Origin: a virus
Virus record (IMG/VR): IMGVR_UViG_3300034190_003384
Coordinates: 1-21,294 of that record
Reading direction: 5' to 3' (one strand)
DNA: 21,294 nucleotides
Numbering within the stretch: position 1 is the stretch's first letter; each line of letters starts with the position of its first letter. The notes beneath the pieces are model-generated. The model was given only the letters and a program-made list of their open reading frames with translations, was not told the DNA's origin and ran no database searches. A program made the translations under genes and the position numbers. Below, in pieces: positions 109 through 19,267 of the stretch.

Positions 109-531
109 ATGCCTAATTATAGAATGCATTGCCGAAACCCTAAATGCGGCGGCTCTTTTCATAGACATATACCAATAGAAGAATTTGAGAAAACACAATA
201 TTCAAATACAGGGTGGAGTTGCTTCAAGTGCGGCTACCTAAAAATGGCAATTATGAAATCAAATAAATCAGCCAAGGACGGCTTTGTTGCAGGTTTTCAA
301 AAGAACATTGGGAAGGTTTGTAATACATATACCCAGTATAAGAAGGAACTTAAAGACATGGGGCTAATAGAATTAGGTTATGAAGAGTTAAAGACAGAAC
401 CAGAGGACGAAAACTTTAAAGACTACTGGGACGACGAGGTATTGAAAGAAATATACGACGAAGACAATATCAATTTTGACGGTGAATTGATAAGAGGCCT
501 ACAGAATGGTTCCATAGGCCTAGAAGACTAG
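109..531 (+). CDS. small zinc-ribbon-like protein, function unknown
   Basis: This is a 140-residue protein. Its first 45 residues contain two cysteine pairs, C8/C13 (CRNPKC) and C38/C41 (CFKC), the layout of a zinc ribbon that could bind nucleic acid or protein. The rest is acidic and probably helical, with many D and E residues between about 95 and 130. A GGGAG about 10 bases upstream of the ATG fits a ribosome binding site. The gene follows the preceding one by a single base and is convergent with the minus-strand gene: the palindrome CTAG at 528-531 supplies both stop codons. I do not recognise a specific family. The zinc-binding role is inferred from cysteine spacing alone. Confidence 0.75.
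   Translation: MPNYRMHCRNPKCGGSFHRHIPIEEFEKTQYSNTGWSCFKCGYLKMAIMKSNKSAKDGFVAGFQKNIGKVCNTYTQYKKELKDMGLIELGYEELKTEPEDENFKDYWDDEVLKEIYDEDNINFDGELIRGLQNGSIGLED
495..521. terminator. inverted repeat at the convergent gene ends (possible two-way terminator)
   Basis: AGGCCTA at 495-501 and TAGGCCT at 515-521 are a perfect 7-bp inverted repeat, and an inner GAA/TTC can also pair. It lies in the last codons of the zinc-ribbon gene, where plus- and minus-strand transcripts meet. There is no clear T tract on either side, so termination is only a guess. Confidence 0.3.
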
Positions 532-1331
532 AAGCCTAAAAAAGTTGTGCTATTAAACAAAATTCCATCGAAGGAACAAATTCCAGAAGTGTTATTTGCT
601 TCTATGTCCTCAATAGCCATTCTAATATCAGTTTTCTCAGGAAGATAAAGCGGAAAATCTAGCTCTCTTTCAAAGGTGTTGGCCGTTACCCCTATAACTT
701 GCTTAACATTCCACGCGCCGCCAAACGGTCGGACATAAAAATAAATAGACCCAGACGTTGCCGACTTTTTACCTACTCCCGCAAAGATTTTATGAATCAA
801 AAGCTTATGATTAGCCGGAACGGTATAGATTGCTTGTTGTGTTTGCCCTGCACCAATATCTATGGCGGCTACAGGAGAGCTATTAATTGAGGAAATTATT
901 GTTCCCTCGTTTGTTTGTCCCGTGCCTGCGGTATCTATAATCATTCTATAAACTCTATAAAAGAGAGTCGTTGTCAGAACAGGAGTTATGCCATTCAGGG
1001 TAACTGTTTCTTGGATTCTTTCAAAGGAAGTGTTTAGGCCATAAATTGTCATTGTTCTTGCGCCGATTCCCGCAGAGGTATCACTTACACTCGAACTAAC
1101 ACTAGAAACCACCGTTGCAATTGTAGGCCAAACGTAAAGCCCGCCGCCGGCCCAACAGTCCTCATTTGTTCCAATGTTAACGTCGCTATTTATCCCAAAT
1201 TTGTAAAGAGTTTCAGCCCCTACTATTTGATTCATTGAAACCATTTGATTAAAGTTGAGTTGGTGTCTAGCTCTCATCTGGGAATTGGCGGAGAAGCTAA
1301 ATAGGAGAGTCATAATTAATAGTATTTTCAT
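528..1331 (-). CDS. secreted phage virion-family protein on the opposite strand
   Basis: This is a 267-residue protein with a clear signal peptide: a Lys near the N-terminus, a hydrophobic core LLIMTLLFSFSA and likely cleavage near ANS-Q at residues 15-18. The mature part resembles, from memory, a beta-rich structural-protein family common in marine phage genomes. Shared signatures are INSDVNIGTNED, the GGGLYVWP block, TVTLNGITPV, YRVYRM, AIYTVPA, RPFGGAW and the C-terminal FDGIL. It has two mature cysteines, C59 and C252. On its own strand an AAGGTG lies about 6 bases before the ATG, and a perfect TATAAT lies about 35 bases upstream. It is the only minus-strand gene here and sits just before the portal, so it may be an independently expressed cargo gene. 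Its stop shares the CTAG with the convergent gene. The virion family is fairly likely; why it is exported is unknown. Confidence 0.8.
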   Translation of the reverse strand: MKILLIMTLLFSFSANSQMRARHQLNFNQMVSMNQIVGAETLYKFGINSDVNIGTNEDCWAGGGLYVWPTIATVVSSVSSSVSDTSAGIGARTMTIYGLNTSFERIQETVTLNGITPVLTTTLFYRVYRMIIDTAGTGQTNEGTIISSINSSPVAAIDIGAGQTQQAIYTVPANHKLLIHKIFAGVGKKSATSGSIYFYVRPFGGAWNVKQVIGVTANTFERELDFPLYLPEKTDIRMAIEDIEANNTSGICSFDGILFNSTTFLGF

Positions 1332-1363
1332 ATATTCACCTTTTCAGTTGAAGTTAAAGCCAG

Positions 1364-1369
1364 ATTATA
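1364..1369 (-). promoter_or_regulatory. possible -10 element for the minus-strand gene
   Basis: The minus strand reads TATAAT here, about 35 bases upstream of the ATG of the secreted protein. No good -35 hexamer is found at 16-18 bases, so this is weak evidence for a promoter. The 124-base gap at 1332-1455 holds nothing else I can identify apart from the leader of the portal gene. Confidence 0.2.
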
Positions 1370-1455: not shown

Positions 1456-3534
1456 ATGGGAAAAAACAAAAACGAGCCGACGGCTATCGAAGTTAGAGAC
1501 AGCGTAAAAAAAGACGTTGAAAAGTATTACAATGGCCGCAAGAAATTATGGCAAGACGAAGAGGAACTTTATTTCGGTAAAGCTTGGAAGAATACAAACG
1601 AATACCGACCTTACGAAAATCATATATTTCCTATTATAGAAACGGCAGTTCCCATTCTTACAGATAATATTCCAGGCCCGACAGTTACAGTCACCGACCC
1701 TTCGAAAATGGAAGTTGCTAAGAATTTAGAAAAAGCAATTAATTGGGTTAATGAAGACCAAAATTTGGCCTTAAAGTACCCTGAGGTTGTTCGTCTAGCT
1801 CTTATTACTGGTAACGCTTATATTCACCCTTATTATGATTTCGAAGCTAACGGCGGAGAAGGTAAAGAGGTCTATGAGATTCTTAAATATACTAAAGTTA
1901 AACTATCAGGACGTTCAGACAGCTTAGAAGATTGTGACAAGGCAAGAATTGAGCTTTGCAGATCAAGAGATTGGTTAACATTGCGTTACCCTGAGAAGTC
2001 AGAAGAAATTGAGGCGACAAAAGCCCCTGAAGAAAAAGACGAAGATGACAATGAACGCGGCAAAGAGACGTCCGATTATGGTTCCGGCTATTCACGCCGA
2101 CAGGTTCCTAAAGAATACCAAGATGACGACACACTAAAGCTAATTTTAACTTATAAGAAAGATTTTTCTCTTGTCGAAATTAAAGAAGAAGAAATTTTAA
2201 AAGAATTAGAAGAAGAAACAAAAGATATAGTTGAGGGCGTAGCTCCAAACCTTGCAAAATACCAAAATCATCAAAGGCATATAGAAGCTCATAAAGACGC
2301 TATAAACATGCTACTTGAAAACCTAGGTATTCCACCGGAAACAGAATTCGAAGGCGTCTATGCGGTTGTAGAGCAGCTTATACAGCAAAACCCGCAGGCT
2401 CAAGAGCAATTCACGGCAGAATTAGCAAAAATTAAGGTTTTATTTGACCATGTTGAAGAGCATATGCTTTACGCTAAATTAAACCCAAAAGGCAAAAAGC
2501 TTAAATACAAAGGCGGCTACAGAGTTATTGAAACCGTAAACGACATAGTTTGTTATGATGGACCTAATAAGTGCATTCACAACCAAATACCTATAGTTCC
2601 TTTTTATTGTTATAGAAATGGAACTATCTACGCAGACGGTATGATTCGAAATATTGCCGACTCTCAGAGAATGCAAGCAGTACTTGGTTACAAAGAATAT
2701 AAAGGCCTTCAAAAAGTTACTAATCCAGAAAAAGAAGTAAATCTTGAATCAGGACTAACTAAAGACGATATTACAAACGAGGACGGCGCAGTTTATGAAA
2801 CTAAAGTCGGAACATCGTGGACAGTAAGAAACCTTCAGGTTGGTCAAGTTTCGGAGCAAGGGCGTAGATTTCAGGAAGACCGTAAAAACGTAATGGACGA
2901 TATTTCGGGAATGACTGACCCAACAAGAGGTGAGTTACCAGACGGAAGACTTTCAGAAGTTACCGTGATGAAAACTCAAAACCAAGCTCTTGGGAGAATC
3001 AGGTTAAAGGATAGACAAAACCAGTATTATTCTCTTAGAAGACTTTCAAAACTTGTGGCCAGTGACATTATTCAATTCTGGACTACTGAAAAAGTATTAG
3101 AGATTGAAAATAAGGACGAGCAAACAATGCAGGTCATTTTTAATCCATTGGAAGTGCAAGATTTAGAATATGACATTAAATCAACAGCGGGCAATATGTC
3201 AGGAATTGATAAAGATGCATTCAATGGTTTTGCTTCACAATTATTAAACTCACAGAAGATCACTTTTAATCAATTTGCAGAAATTATTGATATGCCTAAA
3301 GCGGACAAGCTTAAAGAATTTGCAGCACAGAACGACCAACAGGGCGCGGAAATGCAACAGGCAAACGAAGCTATGAAGGCTCTTCAAATTGAAAACATGA
3401 AACTAAAGGCGAGCATTTCGCCTGACCTTCTAGCTCCTGAAGAATTAAAGATTCTCGAAGAGGTAGGAAGGCAAGAATTAAACGAAGAGGTAACGGCAGT
3501 CAACAACGACCAAGCCGACGCAACGGAGTTATAA
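1456..3534 (+). CDS. portal protein
   Basis: This 692-residue protein would form the dodecameric ring at the head vertex through which DNA is packaged and ejected. Its length is near that of the P22 portal. Recognisable portal features are the N-terminal region with IFPIIETAVPILTDNIPGP, a long central region with charged helical stretches, and SGMTDPTRGELPDGRLSEVT at about residue 485, followed by a basic helix RRLSKLVASDIIQFW. The C-terminus is helical and rich in Glu and Gln. The frame is open back to 1255, but those 67 codons overlap the start of the opposite gene and read unlike a portal, so I start at the ATG at 1456. The ribosome binding site there is poor. Scaffold and capsid genes follow directly, as expected. 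Confidence 0.85.
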   Translation: MGKNKNEPTAIEVRDSVKKDVEKYYNGRKKLWQDEEELYFGKAWKNTNEYRPYENHIFPIIETAVPILTDNIPGPTVTVTDPSKMEVAKNLEKAINWVNEDQNLALKYPEVVRLALITGNAYIHPYYDFEANGGEGKEVYEILKYTKVKLSGRSDSLEDCDKARIELCRSRDWLTLRYPEKSEEIEATKAPEEKDEDDNERGKETSDYGSGYSRRQVPKEYQDDDTLKLILTYKKDFSLVEIKEEEILKELEEETKDIVEGVAPNLAKYQNHQRHIEAHKDAINMLLENLGIPPETEFEGVYAVVEQLIQQNPQAQEQFTAELAKIKVLFDHVEEHMLYAKLNPKGKKLKYKGGYRVIETVNDIVCYDGPNKCIHNQIPIVPFYCYRNGTIYADGMIRNIADSQRMQAVLGYKEYKGLQKVTNPEKEVNLESGLTKDDITNEDGAVYETKVGTSWTVRNLQVGQVSEQGRRFQEDRKNVMDDISGMTDPTRGELPDGRLSEVTVMKTQNQALGRIRLKDRQNQYYSLRRLSKLVASDIIQFWTTEKVLEIENKDEQTMQVIFNPLEVQDLEYDIKSTAGNMSGIDKDAFNGFASQLLNSQKITFNQFAEIIDMPKADKLKEFAAQNDQQGAEMQQANEAMKALQIENMKLKASISPDLLAPEELKILEEVGRQELNEEVTAVNNDQADATEL

Positions 3535-4651: not shown

Positions 4652-5614
4652 ATGGCTTTAACTTATACGCAACTTACAGCGTTGACTAACAAATTAATTA
4701 AGAAAAAACTTACGGAAGGTGTTTTTAAAAATGATGCTCTTCTTGCACGTTTCAGAAAAAACCAAGAACTTGAAGACGGTGGAACAAAGATTACTTGTCC
4801 TCTATTTTCAGTAGATGATACAGGTTCGACTGGTGAGTTCTACGAACCGACTGATGCTCTTGCGCTTACTACTTATGACGGGATTAGTGCTTCGGAGCAT
4901 GAGTGGCGTTATATCCAAGAATCAATTGTAATTTATAAAGCCGACATTGCTAAAAACGGTGGCGACTCAGGAAAAGTAAAACTTGTATCTTCTAAAGTTA
5001 AACAAGCCGAAATGGCAATGAAGCAAAGAATGATTAAAGGTATTCTTTCAGACGGCGGTGCGTCATTGGGTGCAGCTGATACAGACCAATTTGATGGACT
5101 AGAAGCAATCATCGCTTCAAGTGGAACATACGGCGGTATTGCTCCCGCAGACCTTGCAACTTGGGTTAGTTATGTAGATGACAACGCAGGTGTTGATAGA
5201 GCCCTTACACAAGCTATGGTAGACAAAGCTTATGACCAAACTGTTGAAAACGGAATTGGTGGCGCTTCTTTAGGAATTATGGACAAGTCTGTATTCACTA
5301 AATTTAAGGGGCTTCTAACAGGTCAACAACGTGTTATGCGTGAAGATACTGTAAGTGGTCAAGGTCACAAAGGTCAGACGTTAGTTTATAACGGAATTGA
5401 TCACATGATCGTAAACCTTATGCCTGCTAATACTCTATTTTATGTAGATGAAGAGCATGTGAAGCTTCACGTTCATAGGGAACATAACATGCGTAGACAG
5501 TCTATCACAGACCTTGAAACAGCAGATGCGCTACTTGAAAGAATCTTTCTTTACGGAAACTTAATTGCTTCTGAAAGAAAATTCAATTCAAGAATTAATG
5601 ACATTGCAGTTTAA
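4652..5614 (+). CDS. major capsid protein (HK97-fold type)
   Basis: This 320-residue protein forms the icosahedral shell. It resembles, from memory, a podovirus/siphovirus capsid family recognised by an N-terminal segment of LTNKLIKKKLTEG type, a middle SEHEWRYIQESIVIYKADIAKN, a helix with QAEMAMKQRMIKGILSDG, and QFDGLEAIIAS. The HK97 fold is inferred from the family. It has the strongest ribosome binding site in the window (GGAGG at 4642-4646, 5 bases before ATG), as expected for the most abundant virion protein, and a strong terminator directly follows. Only one cysteine is present. Confidence 0.88.
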   Translation: MALTYTQLTALTNKLIKKKLTEGVFKNDALLARFRKNQELEDGGTKITCPLFSVDDTGSTGEFYEPTDALALTTYDGISASEHEWRYIQESIVIYKADIAKNGGDSGKVKLVSSKVKQAEMAMKQRMIKGILSDGGASLGAADTDQFDGLEAIIASSGTYGGIAPADLATWVSYVDDNAGVDRALTQAMVDKAYDQTVENGIGGASLGIMDKSVFTKFKGLLTGQQRVMREDTVSGQGHKGQTLVYNGIDHMIVNLMPANTLFYVDEEHVKLHVHREHNMRRQSITDLETADALLERIFLYGNLIASERKFNSRINDIAV

Positions 5615-5626
5615 TAAAAAATAACA

Positions 5627-5653
5627 GGGGGGGCTTTTGCTCCCCTTTTTTTT
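5627..5653 (+). terminator. Rho-independent terminator after the capsid gene
   Basis: Bases 5627-5634 (seven G then C) pair with 5639-5646 across a TTTT loop, with G-T wobble at 5632:5641 and at the base of the stem, followed by a run of eight T at 5646-5653. It lies 13 bases after the capsid stop and should set high capsid expression apart from the tail genes, which then need read-through or their own promoter. Confidence 0.85.
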
Positions 5654-5671
5654 AGGCTTACGGCTTAACTT

Positions 5672-5899
5672 ATGGCCCTTGCTTTACAGATGATTGACAA
5701 GATTAATTGGGTTCTTTCTAGGGGCGAATTTCTTGCCATATTCCTTCTAGTTTTCATTACTACTAATTATAATGACTTCCTATCTCTCAAATTCTTTTGT
5801 CTTCTAGTAATTACAGGGGCCACCATGGTTCTATTTATCCCGCGCAACAATGTTTTAAAGTTGGGTTCTTTGTTACCATGTAGATTAGTGAAAAAATAA
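5672..5899 (+). CDS. small membrane protein between capsid and tail genes
   Basis: This 75-residue protein has two hydrophobic stretches, about residues 19-32 (FLAIFLLVFITT) and 39-57 (LKFFCLLVITGATMVLF), so it should sit in the inner membrane as a short hairpin. The C-terminus is basic. It starts just after the capsid terminator and has no clear ribosome binding site; ATG at 5690 is an alternative start. Its plus strand is T-rich, unlike the A-rich neighbours, which partly reflects hydrophobic codons. Holin or superinfection-exclusion roles are possible, but nothing specific supports either. Confidence 0.55.
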   Translation: MALALQMIDKINWVLSRGEFLAIFLLVFITTNYNDFLSLKFFCLLVITGATMVLFIPRNNVLKLGSLLPCRLVKK

Positions 5900-5910
5900 A
5901 CGAGGTAATT

Positions 5911-8865: not shown

Positions 8866-9972
8866 ATGAAAAAAATAACTTCAAACCTATTTATATTCTT
8901 GGCGACAGCATTCGCCTTTTCTTATTTCACAAATGCTTCAGCGGCGACATGTTCAAGTATTTCGCGCTCAACTTTTGGGGCAAACACTGTATTAACTTCC
9001 TCGGAACTTAATAATCAATTCTCAACAGTTTACTCCGCGGCTAATAACTTAGATGCGGGCTGTTTGACTGACGGGACATTAGAGGCAGCGGCTTTAAATG
9101 CTACAGATTTTCAACCACTATTAAATAATACGGTTGCAGGCTGCAAGATAACAAAATCTAGTGACTCAACTATTTCTATCTCTCCATGCTCAATGACTAT
9201 TAACGGAAACATGGTCAATAAGACGGGCGCGAGCACAGTAGCTTTTGGCTGCACAGGTTGTTATGTAGAGCTAGTGAATAGGGCTTACTACGTTTATATA
9301 AAAGGCGATTCAACAGGCACAACTATTAACTCTTATATGACAATTACGGCTCCTAATTCTCTTGGGTATAATGGAACCGATAAAGTTGTTGGAAGATTTT
9401 GGAATAATAACTCCTCAAATATTGATGAATACTCAATAGATCAGTGGTCAGTAAATCAATTTATTCCACAGGAAACGGGACGAGTTAATCTAGGTAATCT
9501 AGTAATTACCGCAACAGGTACGGACCCAACAAACGGAACAATTGTCAAAGACGTTCATTACTTCACAAGACAAGGACCATATGCACTAATGCAATTTAAT
9601 TATCAAAGAAGCGCAACGGGTGCAGTAGCGGGAACAGGTTATTATACATTCACACTTCCAGACGGGCTAAACTTTGAAGACGAAGATTATTCATCAGCTT
9701 CAAGCTATCCGGACGCAAGTTTCCCCGCAACGGCTTACGGGCCGATTATGGTAATAGGGAATAACGGCGGTTGGCCTCAAAATGGAACGGCTTATATTGT
9801 CCCTTATAGCTCGACAACTTTCAGGCTCTTTATCCATGCTTCGATAAATCTAAATGGTTTCGCCGTTAGTACTTGGAGTGGTATTTATATGCAAAACGGT
9901 TTTAACGATGTGACAAGCAATTTAACTATCAAGGGTTCAGTGTTGATACCTATTAAAAATTGGGATTACTAA
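8866..9972 (+). CDS. secreted fibre-like structural protein
   Basis: This 368-residue protein has a textbook signal peptide: MKK, hydrophobic core LFIFLATAFAFSYF and cleavage after NASA at about residue 26. The mature N-terminus matches a common phage fibre/tail pattern (TFGANTVLTSSELNNQFSTV, then LDAGCLTDGTLEAAALNATD). The C-terminal half resembles fibre jelly-roll domains (YYTFTLPDGL, YIVPYSSTTFRLFI, IKGSVLIPI). All six cysteines (29, 66, 93, 108, 129, 132) lie in the mature protein, an even number that would allow disulfides in the periplasm. It sits between nozzle and ejection genes, with AAGG 5 bases before ATG. A fibre or receptor-binding role is likely; the signal peptide is the odd feature. 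Confidence 0.7.
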   Translation: MKKITSNLFIFLATAFAFSYFTNASAATCSSISRSTFGANTVLTSSELNNQFSTVYSAANNLDAGCLTDGTLEAAALNATDFQPLLNNTVAGCKITKSSDSTISISPCSMTINGNMVNKTGASTVAFGCTGCYVELVNRAYYVYIKGDSTGTTINSYMTITAPNSLGYNGTDKVVGRFWNNNSSNIDEYSIDQWSVNQFIPQETGRVNLGNLVITATGTDPTNGTIVKDVHYFTRQGPYALMQFNYQRSATGAVAGTGYYTFTLPDGLNFEDEDYSSASSYPDASFPATAYGPIMVIGNNGGWPQNGTAYIVPYSSTTFRLFIHASINLNGFAVSTWSGIYMQNGFNDVTSNLTIKGSVLIPIKNWDY

Positions 9973-15085: not shown

Positions 15086-15308
15086 CGAATATGTAGCTCT
15101 TGGAAAGGAAGCCGGAAAGATCATAAATAAGATTTTAGAGCAAATCCCAAACGACGAGCAAAGAGCATTGAGAAAATACTTCAAGTTTTTAGACGTTTAT
15201 CAATCTGAAATCTCAAGAGAAGATTCAGACCATGACTATCTTTTAACTCTAAGAGAGAGAAAGAAAGCACTAGACGAAGGATTTATAGGTGAAATACGCA
15301 AAAATTAG
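15075..15308 (+). CDS. small soluble protein in the candidate membrane/lysis cassette
   Basis: This 77-residue, charged, helical protein has no membrane segment, and I do not recognise it. Visible features are EAGKIINKILEQIPNDEQR at residues 12-30 and a basic/acidic C-terminus (LRERKKALDEGF). It overlaps the 56-residue membrane protein gene by 11 bases and the lipoprotein gene after it by 20 bases, so the three are translated together. AGAAGGA lies about 5 bases before its ATG. A role linked to its membrane neighbours is inferred from overlap only. Confidence 0.6.
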   Translation: MAISEYVALGKEAGKIINKILEQIPNDEQRALRKYFKFLDVYQSEISREDSDHDYLLTLRERKKALDEGFIGEIRKN

Positions 15309-15555
15309 TTTATTGATTCTTATGGTTCTTCTGTTTTCTTGTGGAAGCCAATTAATTAAACAGGGCCCAAAAAGAGCCAAAAACGAAACTTTCTACAAAT
15401 TAACAGATAAAAAGGGTTTTATTTTCCATAATACCTGTAAAAAAGTGAAGAAAAAGCAAAGAGAGTGCAAAATAACAGAGTACGATTTACTGAAAGAGTG
15501 GGAATTTTTCAGAGGTTCCTTTATTCTAATACCTAGTAAATACGTTTTCCCATAG
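15289..15555 (+). CDS. small lipoprotein
   Basis: This 88-residue protein starts with GTG and carries a lipoprotein signal: MKYAK, hydrophobic ISLLILMVLLFS and lipobox LFSC with the lipidated cysteine at 18. The mature 70 residues are basic with two further cysteines (NTCKK, RECKI). GAAGGA about 7 bases before the GTG supports this start; starting at the later internal ATG would remove the charged start of the signal. It overlaps the previous gene by 20 bases. A spanin (Rz1-like) partner role is possible given the small overlapping genes, but it is longer than Rz1, not proline-rich, and no Rz-type transmembrane partner is evident. Superinfection exclusion at the outer membrane is another possibility. 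Confidence 0.65.
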   Translation: MKYAKISLLILMVLLFSCGSQLIKQGPKRAKNETFYKLTDKKGFIFHNTCKKVKKKQRECKITEYDLLKEWEFFRGSFILIPSKYVFP

Positions 15556-15562
15556 GACTTAC

Positions 15563-15898
15563 ATGGCCACACAAATACCGTTTTTTTCAGTAACAGCACA
15601 AACGGCAGATTATAATTCGCCCGCAGTAGATACTTTAAACCAAGCTTATTCAATTATGATTGTGGTCGAGGGTACTTATAACGCCGACGCGGTTTTACAG
15701 CAAAGTTTGGACGGTGTTAATTGGGTAGACGTTGAAGGTTCTTCAGAATCGGCATTTAGTGGCGACCCAGAAACAATTCTTTTTGATGTTACTAGCGGTT
15801 TTCATAGATTCGCAAGAGTAGCAATAACATTCAATTCAGGAAGCTTTGACGTTAAAGGTTTCATTGAGAATGGCGGAAGCTATTGGAAGGCTATCTAA
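15563..15898 (+). CDS. small beta-sandwich virion protein, copy A
   Basis: This is a 111-residue, strand-rich protein with the pattern GTYNADAVLQQSLDGVNWVD and then HRFARVAITFNSGSFDV, typical of small discoidin-like or jelly-roll modules in phage heads and fibres. It is a clear paralogue of the protein at 17695-18012: by hand about 38 of 77 aligned residues match. AGGA lies 5 bases before ATG, overlapping the preceding stop. Its TAA is followed directly and in frame by the ATG of the tail fibre, so the two are translationally linked and may act together, for example as a fibre base or cap. Head decoration is the main alternative. Confidence 0.6.
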   Translation: MATQIPFFSVTAQTADYNSPAVDTLNQAYSIMIVVEGTYNADAVLQQSLDGVNWVDVEGSSESAFSGDPETILFDVTSGFHRFARVAITFNSGSFDVKGFIENGGSYWKAI

Positions 15899-17694: not shown

Positions 17695-18012
17695 ATGAGT
17701 GAGACAGCATTTTATGAAGGAACGGCAGAGACGGTCAGTTTTAACACTAATAGAGTTAAGGCGTTAAAGCCAAACTATAGCATTGGCGCGGTCATGACAG
17801 GAACCTATAATGCAGACGTAAAGCTTCAGTCCAGTATGGACGGGTTGAATTGGGTCGATATTACAGGTACAGAGTCGGCGGCAATAACTGGAAACCCTGA
17901 GGTTGTTCAGTGGGACATTTCGGTAGGTATGCACAAATTTGTTAGAGTGGCGGTGGCGATAAATAGCGGCTCTCTTGATATTAATTGTTACATGAGTAAC
18001 GGGGCTTGGTGA
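17695..18012 (+). CDS. small beta-sandwich virion protein, copy B
   Basis: This 105-residue paralogue of the 15563-15898 protein shares GTYNAD, LQ.S.DG.NWVD, the G.PE turn, RVA and NSGS.D, about half the residues over 77 positions. The N-terminal 30 residues differ, which suggests a common fold attached to different partners. AAGGA precedes the ATG with good spacing. It ends one base before the C1q-like gene. Two paralogues each leading a set of fibre-type genes suggest a hub, cap or decoration role for two receptor-binding structures; this is inference. Confidence 0.6.
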   Translation: MSETAFYEGTAETVSFNTNRVKALKPNYSIGAVMTGTYNADVKLQSSMDGLNWVDITGTESAAITGNPEVVQWDISVGMHKFVRVAVAINSGSLDINCYMSNGAW

Positions 18013-18508: not shown

Positions 18509-19267
18509 GTGGTTTATAAAAATTTAAAAAGTTCTATCCATCTTGAAACTAAAACAGGTTATAGAAATGTTTTCTTTGTTCTTATGGGTCAGTCTAATAT
18601 GAACGGCACAGGTATTATTAGTGCTGACGACGATGGCAATCATAGGATTTTATCATTCACAAAAGAAAATAGAATAATAGAAGCGGAAGCCCCTTTACCA
18701 ACAAATACTGGGACTAGCGATAATGGTATTGGTTTTGGATTATCTTTTGGAAGATCATACACGGCCAATAATGCGAATGATAATTGTATTTTAGTATTAT
18801 CAGCGACAGGCGCAACGGGTTTTGGTCAGGGGAACTGGAATAGTGGCGAGCAACAGTTTATAGATTCTGTTGATGCTTACGAGAGGGCTATGGACACAAT
18901 AACGGCCCCTGTGTTTGGTGGTTTTTTATGGCACCAAGGCGAAAGTGATTCTACGGCGGCATGGTCAGGGAATTATGCAACAGCTCTTTCTGATTTTGTT
19001 AGCGATTTAAGAACGGCCACAGGGGAGGCGACGGCCCCTTTCATTGTGGGGACTTTAGCTGATGACTTTATAAATGGCACAGACGTTACATGGCCAAACG
19101 CTAACCGCAATGAAGTTAATAATGCAATTATAGATGCTCCCAATCAAATTTCTAACTGCGGTCTAGTTGATTTGAGTGGGCTTTCTAGTTATGACGGTAT
19201 TCACTTTTCTAGCGCATCATACAGGACAGGCGGCGGGAAATATTACGACGCATTCGCTCTTTTTTAA
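18509..19267 (+). CDS. SGNH/SASA-type carbohydrate O-acetylesterase (virion-associated)
   Basis: This 252-residue protein has the hallmarks of the sialate O-acetylesterase (SASA, CE6-like) group of SGNH hydrolases: GQSNMNG with nucleophile Ser29, WHQGESD at 141-147, and DGIHFS with catalytic His232 and nearby Asp229. It should remove acetyl groups from host surface or capsular sugar, helping the phage reach its receptor. The GTG start directly follows the previous TAA in the same frame, and AAGGTG a few bases upstream supports it; starting at the first ATG would cut the core strand before GQSNM. There is no signal peptide, which fits assembly into the virion. It is the last gene before the terminator. 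The substrate is unknown. Confidence 0.8.
   Translation: MVYKNLKSSIHLETKTGYRNVFFVLMGQSNMNGTGIISADDDGNHRILSFTKENRIIEAEAPLPTNTGTSDNGIGFGLSFGRSYTANNANDNCILVLSATGATGFGQGNWNSGEQQFIDSVDAYERAMDTITAPVFGGFLWHQGESDSTAAWSGNYATALSDFVSDLRTATGEATAPFIVGTLADDFINGTDVTWPNANRNEVNNAIIDAPNQISNCGLVDLSGLSSYDGIHFSSASYRTGGGKYYDAFALF

Follow-up and report, generated by a model that had tools for sequence, protein, structure and literature searches.

A 21.3-kb virus record (21,294 nucleotides, hereafter the window), a fragment of a P22-like podovirus, carries a single clear gene on its minus strand, at positions 528 to 1331; all other clear genes lie on the plus strand, as the initial annotation had stated. The protein encoded by this gene, P1, begins with a predicted Sec signal peptide and continues as a member of a phage virion protein family. 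The question is what an exported version of such a protein would do for the phage. Besides P1, the window encodes a zinc-ribbon protein, portal, scaffold, major capsid protein (MCP), gp10-type stabilisation, fibre-like, ejection-type and tail proteins, and recombination genes. The features used in the analysis are listed in Table 1.

Table 1. Features of the P1 locus and of related genes. Positions refer to the window unless a contig is named.
Feature	Position	Strand	Basis or remark
Zinc-ribbon-type small protein, partner gene of P1 in relatives	109..531	+	Overlaps P1 tail-to-tail by 4 bp
P1, exported PHROG 8198 protein (export predicted), 267 aa	528..1331	-	ORF, homology, AF2 model
Mature beta domain of P1, jelly-roll type, residues 18-267	531..1280	-	Profile, alignment, model
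Cys252 codon, private to window P1, the only other Cys	576..578	-	Homologue alignment
Cys59 codon, private to window P1	1155..1157	-	Homologue alignment
Predicted Sec signal peptide, residues 1-17, MKILLIMTLLFSFSANS	1281..1331	-	n/h/c regions and A-x-S motif, own rule
SD-like AAGGTGA	1336..1342	-	4 bases 5' of the P1 ATG; good match
TATAAT, possible -10	1364..1369	-	About 32 bases upstream of the P1 ATG; no recognisable -35 at proper spacing
P22-type portal protein, right border of the P1 spot	1456..3534	+	PF16510 3e-17, phrog_156
MCP, anchor for finding relatives	4652..5614	+	phrog_9953 3.7e-36
Site of the relatives' cement-fold gene	5615..5910	+	In the window only a 75-aa membrane-type ORF (5672-5899)
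Fibre-like protein, signal peptide MKKITSNLFIFLATAFAFSYFTNASA followed by ATC, 6 mature Cys	8866..9972	+	
P1 gene, siphovirus group	L012:8438-9253	sense	
P1 gene, siphovirus group	L020:8505-9347	sense	
P1 gene, siphovirus group	L022:8390-9208	sense	

The lineage was sampled through 13 MCP relatives (62–88%) and more distant contigs reached via the cement gene described below. Genome contigs scanned with the MCP and fibre alignments included no bacterial relative, and a search of cultured phage records revealed no phage of the window lineage. The only tRNA clue to the host is a tRNA-Ser (GGA) within the late region of one relative (L029:15746-15823). Several other features of the window were noted in passing. 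Two small paralogous beta-type proteins (15563-15898 and 17695-18012, 44% identity) flank a 403-aa fibre-like gene, and inspection by eye shows a similar motif in the long P1 of contig L025, within its N-terminal domain. A short GTG-start ORF (15289-15555) has a lipoprotein-like start (LLFSCGSQ) and possibly encodes a spanin-type lipoprotein. The tail protein at 18509-19267 (phrog_25867) contains the esterase-like motifs MGQSNMNG and WHQGESD, as in sialate/carbohydrate esterases.

The P1 gene is real. The reading frame starts with ATG, and homology suffices by itself to settle its coding status. The promoter of its own that the initial annotation had considered likely was not confirmed. The lone TATAAT was rejected, being expected by chance at the local A+T content and lacking a properly spaced -35, and a promoter consensus scan upstream of P1 found no promoter-like site, shuffled sequences yielding more sites than the region itself. 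The negative scan likewise gives no support to the proposed expression outside the late programme. An Rfam search gave no match, and no P1 homologue was found in plasmid records.

The interval between terL and the portal gene is a plastic spot in the relatives. P1 and the zinc-ribbon gene occur there in all four strand combinations: (-,+) in the window, (+,+) in L025, (+,-) in L030 and L036, and (-,-) in L028, L033, L037, L132 and L136, the two genes overlapping as one minus-strand unit in L132 and L136. Since orientation flips freely between relatives, the opposite strand of P1, at first regarded as unusual, is unremarkable. P1 is accessory in the lineage: contigs L026, L027, L029 and L032 have none at this spot, and G010 carries a copy devoid of a signal peptide after an ejection-protein gene. 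The homologue of MW202879 is likewise located between terL and portal, and that of Syn1 between the two terminase genes. Contig L033 (1991-5093, minus strand) has two tandem P1 copies with no signal peptide and a 461-aa fibre-like gene behind the zinc-ribbon gene. No homology was found between the zinc-ribbon protein and the DNA-binding protein encoded next to P1 in DSL-LC05.

Residues 28–259 of P1 match positions 40–260 of the 262 in PHROG 8198 (E 1.4e-39), a family annotated as of unknown function. Matches extend to 58 phage records, mostly marine cyanomyoviruses (Synechococcus myoviruses), in agreement with the first impression that the mature part resembles a structural family of marine phages. 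Mass spectrometry of virions purified on CsCl identified one member, gp176 of phage S-CREM2, from 20 unique peptides (coverage 39.4%; PMC10665884, Table 3). We matched its gene coordinates to the virion-proteome entry; gp176 belongs to PHROG 8198 (E 2e-74) and shares 29% identity with P1. The family is thus represented among the virion proteins of at least one phage. Many marine homologues bear another N-terminal segment, of the YNQFNNVLRIYFNQLD type, at the place where P1 has its signal peptide, and in the Syn1 homologue (Syn1_111) this segment also aligns with the beginning of phrog_1645, a different virion family. The natural reading is an exchange of N-terminal modules, in which a putative particle anchor gave way to a signal peptide.

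The AF2 model of P1 (pLDDT 92.5, pTM 0.86) is a beta sandwich of the jelly-roll type. The best phage proteins in BFVD align to it with TM scores of 0.74–0.83 over 240–270 columns, a result that is partly circular, as the family alignment was fed to the model. A fold search against the PDB returned many tied, unrelated jelly-roll entries at Z 8–9, among them nucleoplasmin, satellite virus capsids and the KHP40 cement protein, and none stands out; a sequence search against the PDB gave only chance-level matches, around E 0.5. With PDB matches so many and so unrelated, the fold gives no function. One of the tied entries is the C-terminal domain of XepA (Z 8.4, rmsd 2.4, 97 residues). XepA of the Bacillus subtilis element PBSX is exported, is missing from mature particles and forms a jelly-roll pentamer (PMC6834076), and P1 might by analogy be a non-virion effector that is exported and acts on the envelope late in infection. 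We regard this as improbable, since P1 has no sequence match to XepA and a homologue of P1 was found in virions.

The signal-peptide calls rely on a rule of our own (n-, h- and c-regions plus a cleavage motif), which finds a signal peptide without later transmembrane segments in 16 of 478 ORFs of at least 100 aa from other phage loci. By this rule, the Sec signal peptide noticed initially is a textbook one: Lys2 provides the positive n-region, followed by a hydrophobic core and an A-N-S signal peptidase I motif typical of Sec type I substrates, with the cut predicted after residue 17, between MKILLIMTLLFSFSANS and QM. The same segment is the lowest-confidence stretch of the AF2 model. P1 contains no membrane anchor and no lipobox with Cys at +1, its sole cysteines being Cys59 and Cys252. 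Together with the match to the virion family, the predicted signal peptide supports the description of P1 as an exported version of a virion protein family.

Seven contigs of the lineage (the window, L025, L028, L030, L036, L037 and L132) encode a P1 with a signal peptide; the two L033 copies (found also in the near-identical contig L035) and those of L136 and G010 lack it. The closest homologues of the window P1 are the untagged L033/L035 copies (44%), as would be expected if the hydrophobic N-terminus were a product of chance or of a wrong start codon and P1 an ordinary cytoplasmic virion protein. This explanation is scarcely credible, given the good SD sequence preceding the signal-peptide region, the signal peptides in seven lineage members and the low background of the rule. 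In the maximum-likelihood tree of P1 homologues, the sister rows of the window P1 are the untagged L035 copies (SH-aLRT 95), and the signal-peptide trait needs at least four changes.

Signal-peptide-bearing P1 proteins were also found in an unrelated siphovirus group (L012-L014 and L020-L023), so that homologues with a predicted signal peptide occur in two unrelated phage groups, contrary to the initially named refuting case in which every homologue would lack one. The siphovirus-group proteins share PHROG 8198 and the signal peptide with the window P1, but their genes are sense-strand members of the tail module, placed between the tail terminator and the major tail protein genes, and they form a separate tree branch. 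Their location bears on the possibility that P1 is an exported receptor or envelope blocker, which would bind the phage's own receptor, either from the periplasm or once released, and shut out superinfecting or progeny phage from the cell and from cell debris. The predicted export of P1, its accessory and patchy occurrence and its own transcription unit in the window would suit such a role, and a precedent exists in T5 Llp, a lipoprotein of the periplasm whose gene lies next to that of the receptor-binding protein (PMC9586334). A gene sitting inside a tail module speaks against a blocker, as do the absence of a lipobox or membrane anchor and the size of P1, which is far larger than Llp or Cor; we consider this role unlikely.

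P1 is not the only predicted exported protein of the lineage. Most relatives have a gene for a 165–175-aa protein directly 3' of the MCP gene, and every lineage contig with this gene has it in that position. In all 18 distinct contigs, which reach down to about 36% identity in the MCP, the protein has a predicted signal peptide. The model of the L025 copy (L025:11046-11543), with a pLDDT of only 72, was compared with the PDB, where rows 1–9 are all entries for phage capsids or capsid/decoration proteins, with Pam3 at the top (Z 9.8, rmsd 3.3, 122 aligned residues), followed by FCWL1, T1, XM1, HFTV1, E217, Pa193 and TW1. The best Pfam cement profile, PF09956, scored 14.5 bits, below its cut-off of 24 (one homologue reached E 0.049). 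No homologue was found in cultured phage records, and profile comparisons of the family with Mx8 p49 and with the BUCT555 gene after MCP were not significant. The fold is like that of capsid cement proteins (Pam3, T1, XM1, TW1; Pfam Phage_cement_2), whereas the lineage copies bear a signal peptide, and their mature part contains 4 or 6 cysteines (18 of 18); Mx8 p49, annotated as a virion structural protein at the same locus, has no signal peptide. The phage of the window has lost or replaced this gene. Neither a receptor blocker nor an envelope effector would explain why the same lineage tags a cement-fold capsid protein for export.

The second tagged gene, encoding a fibre-like protein, lies 3' of gp10 and has a predicted signal peptide in 14 of 15 contigs, the window included, the exception being L135; the L143 fibre was assessed by hand. 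Further fibre-like genes are located at L025:14668-15762 and L132:10670-11683. Cultured phage records contained no homologue of this protein either. The mature parts of the tagged fibre-like proteins have 2, 4, 6, 8 or 10 cysteines (14 of 14), which together with the cement-fold proteins makes 32 even numbers out of 32 when each protein is trimmed at its predicted cleavage site before counting (trimming a fixed 22 residues instead left some odd numbers). Among untagged ORFs with any cysteine on the same contigs, 51 have an even and 90 an odd number (Fisher p 2.7e-12 for 31 tagged rows, uncorrected for relatedness). Because the mature numbers are all even, the tagged proteins point to a crossing of the membrane into an oxidising compartment. 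The even cysteines and the textbook cleavage motifs of all tagged cement and fibre proteins also argue against an uncleaved hydrophobic N-terminus that would tether virion parts at the membrane's inner face while particles assemble. Such a tether could explain why three virion-type proteins encoded beside assembly genes share this type of N-terminus; it is nevertheless decidedly improbable.

For P1 itself, the support from cysteine parity is weaker than for its exported neighbours. The tagged P1 proteins have 2, 2, 2, 0, 0 and 0 cysteines, with one cysteine in L132, and cysteine density is not raised. The sites of Cys59 and Cys252 are occupied by other residues in 36 of 36 aligned homologues, which confirms that this pair is absent from the relatives; the P1 proteins of L036 and L037 have a pair at positions equivalent to 91 and 132, compared with 59 and 252 in the window.

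Overall, we see close to an even chance that the gene at 528-1331 encodes an accessory virion-surface protein of PHROG 8198, in which a Sec signal peptide has taken the place of the N-terminal particle anchor and which is exported and joins the particles at lysis. P1 would be made in the cytoplasm, pass through SecYEG, be cleaved after Ser17 and fold in the periplasm, probably with a Cys59–Cys252 disulfide. The exported proteins would most likely meet the cytoplasmic particles as the envelope breaks at lysis and bind to them from outside. Export and cleavage of P1 and its disulfide are deduced from sequence signatures, and its attachment to the virion is an inference. That P1 may be a virion part had been offered initially as an alternative, and this reading is strengthened by the fact that the lineage tags cement-fold and fibre-like proteins for export too, which suggests export as a general route for its virion decorations. 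More tentatively, the P22-like lineage as a whole may export cement, fibre-like and PHROG 8198 parts via Sec, form their disulfides in the periplasm and decorate its cytoplasmically assembled particles only at or after lysis.

Tailed phages are taken to assemble their particles in the cytoplasm, where disulfides normally do not form. If the proposed route is true, outer virion parts would mature in a separate compartment and join the particle at lysis, a two-compartment assembly that would be new for tailed dsDNA phages; an open-access literature search, itself incomplete, turned up no description of virion proteins with Sec tags in these phages. It would also bear on virion stabilisation and on why phages carry many unexplained exported proteins.

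Among known systems, PBSX XepA and SPbeta YomS share with P1 a jelly-roll-like domain and, in the case of XepA, export (predicted for P1), but they have no sequence homology to P1 and the fold match does not rise above unrelated entries. The superinfection-exclusion lipoproteins T5 Llp and Cor resemble P1 as exported phage proteins (by prediction for P1) encoded near virion genes; Llp, however, is a small lipoprotein, whereas mature P1 would be a 250-aa soluble beta protein. A further comparison is with the PHROG 8198 proteins of cyanomyoviruses, such as S-CREM2 gp176 and Syn1_111, which have the profile family and the beta domain in common with P1. Their N-terminal segment is non-hydrophobic, whereas P1 has a predicted signal peptide and a private pair of cysteines.
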